Positions 2,674 to 17,424 of a stretch of 29,837 bases of DNA are shown here, piece after piece. Position numbers and translations under genes: made by a program. Source of the stretch: a virus. A model generated the notes under the pieces. It was not told the DNA's origin and did not search any database. It worked only from the letters and a program-made list of their open reading frames with translations. The stretch spans positions 1-29,837 of the IMG/VR virus record IMGVR_UViG_3300030104_006444. One strand, given 5' to 3'. Positions within the stretch are counted from its first letter, which is position 1. Every line of letters starts with the position of its first letter.

Positions 2674-3388
2674 TTTGTTTTAAATATTCTTTTTTGTTGC
2701 TTTCGGTAATTTTTAAGAAAATTTTATTATTGCCAATGAAATTTGAATCAACAAAAATATATATTATACCTTTATCTTTCTTTTTCATTTTCCAAATGCC
2801 TTGATTTACATAACCTTTCAACTTATCAAGTTGTTCTGCCTCTTGCATTTTTGGATATTCATCTTCGTGGACTATTTTTATGTAATCCAATCCAAGCATT
2901 TCAATATGTTGATAGCCTAAAAGTTCGGCATATTTATTCGTTGCAGAAAGTATTATCTTTTTATCAAGACAGATAATAGCCTGTTTCTCAGATTGATTTA
3001 ACTCCGGAATAAACTCTTGATTGTTAAGAATACTATCTTCAAGTGATTCGCATTTATCTTTGTAATAATCTAATTGCTCTCTTAGCAAAGTTATTAATTC
3101 ATTTTGGTTATCTATGGTTTGCTTGTCTTGAGTATTGCCAAACATATCCTCTCCTTTAATTAATTCAAGTCGATTAGAGCCAAGCCAATCAACCTTGTAG
3201 TTTAGTCTATTAGCAATCATCTCTAAATTATTTTCACGAATATCGGCTCTACCGTTAAACCAAGCATACACTTGATTTCGCGTAAATCCTACTGCTCTCG
3301 CAAATTGAGATATATTATATCCCGACTTTTTAAATAATTCCTTAATTGCTTTTTGTTTTGTCATATTATCAACTATACTAATAGTCAT
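2648..3388 (-). CDS. HTH-PAS transcriptional regulator, likely lysogeny repressor
   Basis: 246 residues. An XRE/Cro-CI type helix-turn-helix occupies about residues 10-70 (NISQFARAVGFTRNQVYAWF). A polar helical linker (about 75-125) follows. Residues about 133-235 look like a PAS domain: a hydrophobic strand then ATNKYAELLGY, LGLDYIKIVHEDEYP and a closing beta-sheet. The S24/LexA autocleavage domain usual in SOS-inducible repressors is absent. It is divergent from the early operon and upstream of int, the usual place for a prophage repressor. The start is preceded by the module AAAGGCAAAACG. A sensory PAS suggests control of induction by a small molecule, redox state or partner protein; that is inference. 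Confidence 0.8.
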   Translation of the reverse strand: MTISIVDNMTKQKAIKELFKKSGYNISQFARAVGFTRNQVYAWFNGRADIRENNLEMIANRLNYKVDWLGSNRLELIKGEDMFGNTQDKQTIDNQNELITLLREQLDYYKDKCESLEDSILNNQEFIPELNQSEKQAIICLDKKIILSATNKYAELLGYQHIEMLGLDYIKIVHEDEYPKMQEAEQLDKLKGYVNQGIWKMKKKDKGIIYIFVDSNFIGNNKIFLKITESNKKEYLKQNEDTETKA

Positions 3389-3727
3389 CGTTTTGCCTTT
3401 CTACCTAATTACTAATTGTCGGATAATCTTAAAAAATTAGGTATCAAAAAATACACATGCTATTTATTTTAAGTCAAGTAATATTATACCGCAACTATTA
3501 TATTGCATTAGTCTTATGTATTTATAGATACATATATCTATTTATTGATTAAAGAGGTTTTAGTTAGATTGGCACACTATTTGTATATAAACAAGTGTCA
3601 TATTTACTGTATTTAATAGTTGCACAGTTGTGTAATTATTGTGTAATTTAGTATACACATTAATTAACACAATTTATGTGTAAGAAAAAAGGGGTAAGTC
3701 CGACCTCACCCCTTTTAAGGCAAAACG
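3389..3727. promoter_or_regulatory. Divergent immunity/early control region
   Basis: No gene is seen in this 339-bp AT-rich stretch. TGTGTA or its complement TACACA occurs at 3452, 3629, 3640, 3654 and 3677. The 3640/3654 pair forms an inverted repeat with an 8-bp gap, and 3629/3640 is a direct repeat of 11 bp. Candidate rightward promoters are TTGTGT (3628)-18 bp-TATACA (3652) and TTGCAC (3620)-16 bp-TGTAAT (3642), both overlapping these elements. A candidate leftward promoter is TTGACT (3477-3472)-18 bp-TATTTT (3453-3448), whose -10 overlaps the 3452 element. An inverted repeat TACCTAATT/AATTAGGTA lies in the repressor leader (about 3402-3445). Operator function is inferred. Confidence 0.5.
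3687..3716 (+). terminator. Leader terminator/attenuator before early operon
   Basis: A 9-bp perfect stem AAAAGGGGT/ACCCCTTTT with a 12-nt loop, its 3' arm ending in TTTT. It sits between the candidate early promoters and the first early start codon, so it would stop early transcription unless read through or antiterminated. No N-like antiterminator gene was recognised. Confidence 0.6.
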
Positions 3728-4174: not shown

Positions 4175-4343
4175 AATTTATTCAAAAAAAGATTATAGAG
4201 TAAGGGACGTTTATTTAAAACTATTAAAGTCCCCTAATTTTAGAATCGAAGACCCAAAAGGAGCAATAAGACGTTCAGAGGGTGAATATAATATTATTTT
4301 TAAAAGAGCCGTTCAACTCGGCATAATCGGAGGCAAACGATGA
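4164..4343 (+). CDS. Small basic hypothetical protein
   Basis: 59 residues starting MKFKIYSKKDYRVRD. A longer frame opens at 4089, but the ATG at 4164 is preferred because GAGAGG lies at a suitable distance upstream and the 4089 start would overlap the previous gene by 86 nt. It is basic and mixed alpha/beta, with no known motif. It overlaps the ERF gene start by 4 nt, so it is probably coexpressed with the recombination genes. Confidence 0.55.
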   Translation: MKFKIYSKKDYRVRDVYLKLLKSPNFRIEDPKGAIRRSEGEYNIIFKRAVQLGIIGGKR

Positions 4344-5062
4344 TACAAGAAAAGTTACATGAAATACAAGCTAAGTTAGTAGTTCCAAAGTCTCATAAGA
4401 ATAATTTTGGAAATTATAAATACAGAAACCTTGACGGCATATTAGATAATTTAAACCCTATATTAGCAAAAACGGGTTGTACTTGTAGGCTTAAAGATTC
4501 AATTGAGCATATTGGTGATAGATATTATGTGAAATCTACTGCAATCTTAACCTATAAAGATGAAAAGTTATCTTGCTCTGCTTATGCAAGAGAATCTCAG
4601 ACAAAGAAAGGTATGGACGAGGCTCAGATAACAGGTGCAAGTTCCTCTTATGCTCGTAAGTATGCTCTTGCCGGATTATTTAGTATTGGTGGGGCAAGTG
4701 ATAATGATTATGACTACTATGATAACTCCGGAGAGGGCGATGATGCCGGAGCAAATGCCTCCGTTTCCGGAAGCGAAAGTGTAGATAAACCCTCTCCCTC
4801 TCTTTTAGATGAATTAAATATTAATAGTATTGAAGATTTTAAATCTCGTGCTATAAAAGGCGAAGATAAAATCATTGAAAGCACAATTGAAAGTAGTGGT
4901 GAGACTATTGGTTTAATTCAAAAAGACTCTAAAAAATTAAAAGGTTATGTAGCTAATAATTCAATTAGTAAGAGTGATAGAAAATTGGCTCTTGGGGCAT
5001 TGTGCCTTACTGCAAACGATGATGATTTACAATCATTTGTGGAGGCTTATAGTACAAAATGA
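4340..5062 (+). CDS. erf: ERF-family single-strand annealing protein
   Basis: 240 residues. The N-terminal 130 residues carry the ERF hallmarks: EIQAKLVVPKSHKNNFGNYK with YRNLDGILDNLNPIL, then GASSSYARKYALAGLF at about 93-108. A Gly/Ser/Asp-rich linker follows (about 115-150), then a helical C-terminal domain. ERF proteins anneal complementary DNA strands in phage recombination and genome circularisation. The adjacent RecB-like nuclease makes this a two-gene recombination module comparable to Bet/Exo. Its start has GGAGGCAAACG, a shortened form of the repeated initiation module. Confidence 0.9.
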   Translation: MIQEKLHEIQAKLVVPKSHKNNFGNYKYRNLDGILDNLNPILAKTGCTCRLKDSIEHIGDRYYVKSTAILTYKDEKLSCSAYARESQTKKGMDEAQITGASSSYARKYALAGLFSIGGASDNDYDYYDNSGEGDDAGANASVSGSESVDKPSPSLLDELNINSIEDFKSRAIKGEDKIIESTIESSGETIGLIQKDSKKLKGYVANNSISKSDRKLALGALCLTANDDDLQSFVEAYSTK

Positions 5063-15399: not shown

Positions 15400-15765
15400 A
15401 TGCCTCATAAAACTAATCAAACATCTTGGAAAAAAGGAAAAAGTGGAAACCCAAACGGTAGACCACCGAAGGAAAAAACTTTAAAAGCATTATTAAATGA
15501 TAATCCAAGAAATAAGAAATTATTAAAGAAATTATATGATATTGCGATGACTTTAGGAACAAAAAATGAACACAAAGAGGCAGTAAGAGTCACAAATATT
15601 TTACTGAATAAGATTGTTCCCGATTTAAAATCTACCGAATTAGAGGTAAATCAAACGATTCAAGGCTATGTAGTATTACCCGAGGGTAAAAAATATGACT
15701 CAATTGACGGGGAAATAATTTCCCAAAATGTACAGGATTCTAACCCTAAATCCTTGACAGAATGA
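15400..15765 (+). CDS. Small-terminase-like protein (DUF5681 type)
   Basis: 121 residues. The N-terminus has the diagnostic WKKGKSGNPNGRPPKEKT block (about 9-26) of DUF5681 proteins, which are often encoded just before large terminases. The middle is helical with EHKEAVRVTNILLNKIVPD. It could be the DNA-recognition (TerS) partner of TerL, or an adaptor to it; the position fits. No HTH was clear. Confidence 0.6.
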   Translation: MPHKTNQTSWKKGKSGNPNGRPPKEKTLKALLNDNPRNKKLLKKLYDIAMTLGTKNEHKEAVRVTNILLNKIVPDLKSTELEVNQTIQGYVVLPEGKKYDSIDGEIISQNVQDSNPKSLTE

Positions 15766-15924: not shown

Positions 15925-17424
15925 CATTACGAGTATATAAACGAAAGGCGTTTAAACATCGCACATAAGGAGATTTGGAGACCGCATAAGGGACAACAGA
16001 CACGAGCATTAGAGGTTCGTGGTGTGTATGAGACCTTATTCGGTGGCTGACCCTTCGGGGTCATACTTGGTTCACGTGGTGGTGGGAAGACGGACACAGG
16101 GTTAGCTTGGCTACTCATAGACTCCAACAACCCCCTATATAGAGGTTTGGTCATAAGGCGTAATGCTACTGACCTTGAGGATTGGATTGACAGGGCAAGG
16201 CGTATGTACCCTCATGCTAATGTTGTAGGTAAGCCGACAGAGATACGGTTTCCGAGTGGGGCAGTCATTCGCACAGGGCATCTATCGAACAAGGATTCGT
16301 ATACACACTATCAAGGTTGGGAGGCACACCGCATACTTATAGAGGAGTTAACACAGATACCCGATGAGAATAGCTACCTCAAGCTGATAAGTTCCTGTAG
16401 GTCGACTGTCAAGGGGTTGGATGCAAGGGTGTTCGCTACTGCTAATCCGGGGGGTAGAGGTCACGCTTGGGTTAAGAAGAGGTTTATAGACAACCACAAG
16501 CCTAATGAACCCTTTGCGGATGAGGTAAGTAGTAGGCTTAGAATGTTTATCCCTGCTACGGTTGATGATAACCCGACATTAGTTGAGAGAGACCCCGATT
16601 ATGTAGCTTACTTAGACTCTCTACCCGAACCGCTTAGAAGTGCTTGGAGATACGGAGATTGGGAAAGTTTCGCAGAAGGGCAGTTTTTTACAGAATTTAG
16701 TCCCCGTATTCACGTTCTAAAGGACGAACAAGCAAAGGCTTTAGGTTATGGTCGACCCGAAAACCGCAAATACATAGGTTTGGATTGGGGTTACGCTAAC
16801 CCTTTTGCTTGTGTGTGGATAGAGGTTACACCCGATAATACGGTGTTCTGTTATAGAGAGTTGTACGGAACAGAGAAACACCCCCAAGAGTGGGGTGCTG
16901 AGATTGCAAGGTTATCTATGCACGAGAACATAGATACGACATTAGGTGACCCATCGTGTTGGATTCGTAACCCGATGAGTTGGAGAGACAATAGTGTGAG
17001 TATGTACTCCGATAAGTCTATTGCTCACGCTTTGCAAGGTGCAGGTGTTCCCAACTTAGTCCCTGCCAATAATGCAAGGGTAAACGGTTGGGCGAATATG
17101 CAACAGTTAATGAGTTACACAGGTGATAAGGTTGACGAAAGCGGAATGATGATTGAAAGAGGCTCTATACCAAGATTTTATATACTCGAAAAGACCTGTC
17201 CTAATTTAGTTAGGACATTTCCTTTAATGTTAAGGGATGAGAAAAATCCCGAAGATTTAGATACAACGCTTGAAGACCATATCTTAGATGCAACAAGATA
17301 TGCCTTGAGCCACGTTATAGCACCGGATAAGCCAAAGAAAAAAATGCCTATCCTTGCAAGTCAACTAAATGAGTTGGTTTTTGCAGAAAAAAATGAAACA
17401 GTTTTTACTTATAATTTTGATTAA
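15925..17424 (+). CDS. terL: Terminase large subunit with in-frame TGA (possible bypass)
   Basis: An ATPase/nuclease of the genome-packaging motor. The frame is open from 15925 to 17424 except for one TGA at 16048. Upstream it encodes EIWRPHKGQQTRALEVRGVYETLFGG. After a 24-nt hairpin segment come Walker A GSRGGGKT, Walker B RILIEELTQ, coupling motif FATANPGG, and nuclease acids in YIGLDWGYAN, TTLGDPS and EDHILDATRYA. Removing the 24 nt gives LFGGSRGGGKT, the junction expected for the family. No ATG, GTG or TTG exists in frame before codon 34; an ATC at 15958 has AAAGG at good spacing. It may be recoded, decayed or mis-sequenced. Confidence 0.75.
16045..16071 (+). promoter_or_regulatory. Candidate translational bypass element in terL
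   Basis: Gly codon GGC (16045-16047) is followed at once by TGA. The TGA is the first three bases of a perfect 6-bp stem UGACCC/GGGUCA capped by UUCG (16048-16063). AUACUU follows, then a Gly codon GGU (16069-16071). tRNA-Gly with a GCC anticodon reads both GGC and GGU, so matched take-off and landing codons exist, in frame, with a stop after take-off, as in phage T4 gene 60. Confidence 0.5.

Follow-up and report, generated by a model that had tools for sequence, protein, structure and literature searches.

Stop-containing inserts in the Walker A codons of phage large-terminase genes as candidates for translational bypass

Gene 60 of phage T4, in which 50 nt are bypassed during translation, is the only well-established efficient bypass in a phage, and the existence of counterparts has been a long-standing question (PMC5009743). 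The gene has a mobA cassette history, its insert was considered in a review as a possible protection against a homing endonuclease, and a Shine-Dalgarno-like (SD-like) sequence 5' of where the ribosome lands has a modest effect (PMC5009743). A bypass was also suggested for the terminase gene of Streptomyces phage Hau3, where it was tied to a UUA codon and to the decoding of UUA by the host, so that the idea of a bypass in a terminase is not wholly new (PMC5009743). In the mitochondria of Magnusiomyces capitatus, short inserts (byp) that would otherwise be inactivating are skipped at 81 sites genome-wide, often between matched codons and reportedly largely independently of the mRNA context, while in synthetic stop-hops, which are laboratory constructs, matched codons flank a stop and 9 nt are read as one amino acid (PMC5009743). 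No description of recurrent stop-hairpin or stop-hop inserts in Walker A was found in the literature searched.

The DNA analyzed here is a stretch of 29,837 nt (IMGVR_UViG_3300030104_006444, positions 1-29,837; hereafter the window), to which coordinates refer unless another contig is named (Table 1). Read directly, its terL frame (IWRPHKGQQTRALEVRGVYETLFGG) is interrupted by a TGA directly 3' of a GGC codon, and the insert comprises exactly 24 nt that run from this TGA, through a 6-bp UUCG hairpin, to a GGT. An earlier note, made from the letters alone, had described the TGA, the hairpin and the in-frame GGU, and direct reading bore this out; all the gene 60 ingredients that it had named (matched codons, adjacent stop, take-off stem-loop) are present. 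According to the note, the T4 take-off hairpin likewise carries a UUCG loop. GGC and GGU share both the amino acid and the tRNA-Gly (GCC). The codons TCA CGT GGT GGT GGG AAG ACG (SRGGGKT) follow from 16072, then 443 stop-free codons, and this 3' part is 56–69% identical to intact terL proteins. That a skip of 24 nt would give the expected P-loop junction, as the note had also claimed, was upheld by alignment with relatives: L003–L006 (57% identical, insert-free) read YGG-ARGGGKS and lack exactly these 24 nt, so that the skip restores the motif length. A perfect 6-bp stem beginning exactly at the stop would arise by chance about once in 4,096 cases, and the 77-nt region taken whole folds no better than its shuffles (z = +1.06). 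No SD-like sequence precedes the landing codon in the window or in L014 (spacer AUAAUUA). The hairpin was rejected as a repeated element, as it has a single copy in the window, and an alternative genetic code was rejected because TGA serves as an ordinary stop in the window's other genes.

Table 1. Features of terL and its surroundings in the window, and inserts in other terL loci (take-off codon/gap/landing codon; an 8-nt insert is a 5-nt gap plus the landing codon)
Feature	Position	Strand	Basis or remark
Probable small-terminase gene (Pfam DUF5681)	15400-15765	+	ORF; PF18932, E 1.7e-7
AAAGG, candidate Shine-Dalgarno for non-canonical terL start	15944-15948	+	inferred; 9 nt before ATC 15958
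terL 5' part IAHKEIWRPHKGQQTRALEVRGVYETLFGG, ends at take-off GGC	15958-16047	+	N-terminal parts of relatives align with it
Take-off codon GGC, second Gly of YGG/FGG motif	16045-16047	+	direct reading, alignment
In-frame stop UGA, then C	16048-16050	+	direct reading
6-bp hairpin TGACCC-TTCG-GGGTCA	16048-16063	+	direct reading
Hairpin arms	16048-16053, 16058-16063	+	
Hairpin loop TTCG	16054-16057	+	
Spacer TACTT (UACUU), hairpin to landing codon	16064-16068	+	direct reading
Landing codon GGT (GGU), Gly as take-off GGC	16069-16071	+	direct reading
terL 3' part, begins SRGGGKT, 450 aa, intact	16072-17424	+	ORF list
L014: GGT/TGACCCTTTGGGGTCAATAATTA/GGT			26 nt; one Gly codon after Arg codon
L011, L327: GCT/TAATTACCCCCATCATTAAGTTGGTGGGGGATTGATTT/GCA (TAATT...)			41 nt
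L146, L135: L011-type			differ by one or two changes; L135 has an extra base (42 nt)
L116: GCT/TGACTGCTCCCTCTAGAAATAGGGGGAGATTATT/GCA (TGACTG...)			37 nt
L263: GCT/TGACTGCTCCCATCAGTAATGGTGGGAGTGTAAT/GCA (TGACTG...)			37 nt
L277, L279, L280, L281: GGC/TGACA/GGT			8 nt; just before Lys-Thr
L017, L358, L359: GGC/TGATT/GGT			8 nt
L354, L356: GGC/TGACT/GGT			8 nt
L360: GGC/TGACT/GGC			8 nt
L357: GGT/TAATT/GGT			8 nt
L020: GCC/TAGTT, then AGG			without matched landing codon

A second IMG/VR contig (L002) carries the identical insert at 99.5% identity (22 SNPs in 4,552 nt), by which an assembly or sequencing error, a source that the note had wished to see excluded, was rejected. Seventeen of the 22 SNPs lie in terL and 15 of these 17 are synonymous, including both that lie 5' of the TGA. 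As 15 of the 17 terL differences are concentrated in one tract (16449-16680), a mark of recent recombination, the pair is weaker as evidence for selection. The terL of the window was probably itself imported by recombination. Position 1 of L002 corresponds to window position ~15868, which precedes the beginning of terL by about 90 nt, and this contig end falls in an AT-rich non-coding leader, as though the population branches there. Across 15950-17100, terL has 42–50% G+C vs. 25–38% in the surroundings, and on the 5' side the change is abrupt where terL begins.

The note had called terL otherwise intact, which holds for the 3' frame, open to 17424, but it had overlooked that no in-frame ATG, GTG or TTG lies upstream of the insert (before WxPH). 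The best start candidate is the ATC at 15958-15960. An ATC is equally spaced before Trp in L011, L139, L144, L154, L160 and L161, which are also without an in-frame ATG, GTG or TTG, and stands one codon further in L152; in this set it often overlaps the end of terS. The shared spacing suggests initiation at AUC, or a -1 frameshift from terS, and the terL of the window probably starts at AUC 15958. A missing start codon as a sign of decay was rejected, since several insert-free relatives share the equally spaced ATC. Reinitiation was rejected too, as no ATG, GTG or TTG lies between the stop and Walker A and the first canonical start is beyond the P-loop.

The insert of the window has counterparts. 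Stop-containing inserts of 5–42 nt were found in 21 IMG/VR contigs from many metagenomes, belonging to at least seven terL lineages (insert-type and contig counts were assembled by hand; the binomial and p values below are approximate). All interrupt the stretch of terL that encodes Walker A, at several different codons. An in-frame stop (TGA, TAA or TAG) opens each type, immediately 3' of a codon for Gly or Ala; with the sole exception of L020, every type closes with a matched codon (Gly/Gly or Ala/Ala), and most lengths are not multiples of three. The stop UGA is followed by C, a weak termination context, in 7/8 distinct UGA-type inserts (binomial 4e-4). In every carrier the 3' frame of terL is intact, with no second lesion. 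Among 183 terL loci surveyed for frame breaks, the genuine ones are confined to ~8 P-loop codons with the exception of L007; the flags in L156 and L165 came from extension of the query upstream of the start, and L017 was spotted by eye. In L007 (1103-1158), terL is split at about codon 243 by a simple frameshift, far from the P-loop. No comparable breaks or stop-inserts were found in other genes (portal etc.) of these loci, where matches were antisense or divergence noise. The final pattern scan (GGNGGNTRANNGGNNNNMGNGGNNNNGGNAARWS, in which the NN bases and the third position of the first Gly codon could vary) of 2.9 million contigs gave nine matches, seven of which are terL P-loops in the correct register; the other two (L355, L361) were rejected as ordinary P-loop genes in another frame. 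No second intact terL was found in the insert-bearing contigs, and tblastn against annotated phages returned only distant terminases (< 60% identity).

A take-off stem-loop is present in the window and in all inserts of at least 24 nt, and is absent from the 8-nt class; in the long inserts a short unpaired spacer separates it from the landing codon. The stems of L011, L116 and L263 differ on both sides at several pairs with pairing kept, and stable loops occur in the window (UUCG), L116 (GAAA) and L263 (GUAA). An earlier GGT lies buried within the stem in the window and in L014. In L014, L011/L146, L135 and L116, stops occur in the take-off frame and in the landing frame alike; therefore neither readthrough nor frameshifting joins the two halves of these genes, and only skipping does.

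Flanking terL is under strong purifying selection across insert carriers (dN/dS 0.03–0.17), with dS 0.14–0.51 and dN 0.013–0.034 among L277–L281 (8-nt class), dS 0.14–0.26 and dN 0.007–0.037 among L011, L146, L135 and L327, and dS 1.16 and dN 0.12 between L116 and L263. Together with the intact 3' frame in all carriers, these ratios argue against simple decay, as the earlier note had. They suggest that terL with a shared insert evolves as a functional gene; the selection may partly predate each insert, because inserts may spread horizontally, and the insert-bearing alleles could be recent and defective. Changes in the 25 codons 5' of the inserts are mostly synonymous, with 0–1 amino-acid changes between insert-bearing and insert-free sisters. 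As the peptide before the insert is thus nearly unchanged in insert-free sisters, no dedicated gene-60-like nascent-peptide signal is visible; the N-terminus of TerL itself could act as the stimulus. In gene 60, a stimulatory nascent peptide and a 5' stem-loop belong to the programmed bypass, which makes one protein from two disjoint ORFs; in the terL carriers, both halves are conserved.

In a tree of 94 proteins no insert type has a place of its own: they occur in scattered positions, three of the groups include insert-free sisters, and presence is patchy among 93–97% identical relatives. Most insert-bearing/insert-free sister pairs diverge by 11–23% just 5' of the insert and by 0–7% just 3' of it (three pairs pooled, 21/134 vs. 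9/450 differing sites, p 2e-8), and between carriers of one insert type the 5' flank is near-identical. In L020, L354 and L360, terS is separated from terL by an HNH_3 gene (PF13392), which immediately precedes terL; no such gene was found beside an insert-free terL. In L354 the HNH gene (2788-3444) begins with a copied terL 5' end MNIDLILQKKQKKAFYQSLETPVIFYNGG that ends at the P-loop, and is followed by the complete terL start and a recoded P-loop, an arrangement that we read as a snapshot of homing insertion. L017 has a possible endonuclease relic upstream of terL (ORF tail NIHKRW). In the window and 14 further records, PF13392 matched in L017 and L020 only, and GIY-YIG and PF01844 HNH matched nowhere; the window and the tested contigs with longer inserts gave no endonuclease family match. 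A neighboring endonuclease gene (in three phages), patchy presence and a diverged 5' flank are what a homing-linked insertion would show, and such a link is part of the best explanation for the inserts. The terL of L017 (3001-5034) also carries an intein (PF14890) at the C-terminal DH motif, and an HNH_3 ORF (4302-4769) is open in a different frame within the intein region.

The bypass proposed in the earlier note thus gained support from the recurrent layout, the stops in both frames of long out-of-frame types, the purifying selection and the HNH neighbors. We consider it reasonably probable, going by sequence, that the 24-nt element of the window is a homing-linked insertion into Walker A that is skipped in translation and belongs to a recurrent class. 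The ribosome would halt at GGC while UGA-C occupies its A site, the peptidyl-tRNA-Gly would release and the mRNA would slide beyond the hairpin, with an efficiency that we infer along with the sliding; the tRNA would then re-pair at GGU and decoding restart at UCA, giving ...YETLFGG-SRGGGKT..., of exactly the length found in intact relatives. For nearly all types a general rule would apply: the ribosome stalls on Gly or Ala when its A site holds a stop, and the tRNA re-pairs farther 3' at a codon with identical meaning, by which the motif regains its exact length. The exception is L020. The inserts would probably spread and persist by destroying the HNH target in conserved P-loop DNA, and bypassing would keep terL working despite the insert. 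Close to an even call is the broader proposition that the terL Walker A of many uncultured phages is a hot spot where HNH activity drives the gain of cleavage-resistant bypass cassettes, from 41-nt hairpin hops to stop-hops over a 5-nt gap, with the motif exactly restored by the ribosome, so that bypassing would not be singular to T4.

Other readings were weighed against this one. The short inserts (GGG GGY TRA NN GGY, and that of L020) might be read by a -1 frameshift on the G run, giving YGG-L(T/I)G-ARGGGKT, with only the long inserts bypassed, a division that we hold to be less likely than not but a serious rival for the 8-nt class. In every short-type lineage the codon just before take-off is GGG, which occupies the first Gly codon in only 3/92 insert-free relatives, although it could be a shared cassette flank; the net frame change is -1, the -1 frame is open in the short types, and no other reading fits L020. 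Three residues would, however, be added at two different positions, within Walker A or beside it, GGG pairs imperfectly with tRNA-Gly(GCC) whereas the GGY landing pairs perfectly, and the long inserts are left unexplained. Readthrough, which the earlier note had kept as an alternative, could apply to the window alone, where the insert is in frame and has one stop in the weak UGA-C context; read as Trp or another residue, it would yield ...FGG-X-PFGVILG-SRGGGKT, in which VILGSRGGGKT looks like a beta strand leading into Walker A. We judge it very improbable, as eight residues would be added to an otherwise length-invariant motif and TGA is a stop in the other genes of the window; it is impossible for the long out-of-frame inserts and inapplicable to the others, which change frame or have two stops.

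It is also improbable, if less so than readthrough, that the inserts are scars in inactive terL, left in defective prophages or doomed variants where the repair of endonuclease cuts or of replication slippage in the G-rich P-loop added bases. The DNA of the P-loop has repeats and is targeted by homing, the patchy distribution and the lack of a canonical start in the window would agree with such damage, and L007 is an example of a broken terL. Yet several genomes whose dS reaches 0.5 (dN/dS 0.05–0.17) retain the same insert, as does the L116–L263 pair at a dS of 1.16; stems vary on both sides and stay paired, a stop opens every insert and a matched codon closes nearly all, and no carrier has a second lesion in the 3' frame. 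Excision from the RNA (as a tiny intron or by excision of the tRNA-splicing type) or from the DNA before expression would yield the right protein, as would skipping at any level, and the flanks of the L263 hairpin are able to pair; we regard it as extremely improbable, given that 8 nt is too small for any known intron, that the predicted folds are without bulge-helix-bulge geometry and that no repeats are suited to precise removal from DNA.

Translational bypassing of the terL inserts is likely to work as in gene 60, of which they are candidate rather than proven counterparts. Shared with gene 60 are the phage gene, the stop directly after the take-off codon, the take-off stem-loop, the non-coding gap in an essential protein and the link to a homing endonuclease, with a presumed protection against it (PMC5009743). 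The differences are that the site is Walker A of terL and not a topoisomerase, that several unrelated inserts of 5–42 nt occur, with the 8-nt class lacking a hairpin, that no special nascent peptide is visible and that the window has no SD-like element before the landing codon. Hau3 resembles the present case in the terminase gene, the short gap and a bypass proposed from sequence, but reportedly involves a UUA codon and an SD-like sequence before the gap in place of a stop-hairpin insert in Walker A (PMC5009743). The byp inserts are spread over many genes, whereas those of terL occupy one site in one gene and each open with a stop. At least seven terL lineages with the layout of gene 60, some beside a homing-endonuclease gene, would link bypassing to immunity against such enzymes, and these natural variants make the origin and the minimal signals of bypassing testable, down to a 5-nt gap with no obvious nascent-peptide signal. 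In these phages, routine gene prediction would miss the packaging ATPase or cut it short. Matched codons flank the stop in GGC-UGANN-GGU as in the synthetic stop-hops, with the difference that the phage genes are natural and that one amino acid corresponds to 11 nt. Immediately 5' of the hairpin, the inserts of L116 and L263 also hold GCT/TGACT/GCT, which has the 5-nt stop-hop layout seen in the short class.
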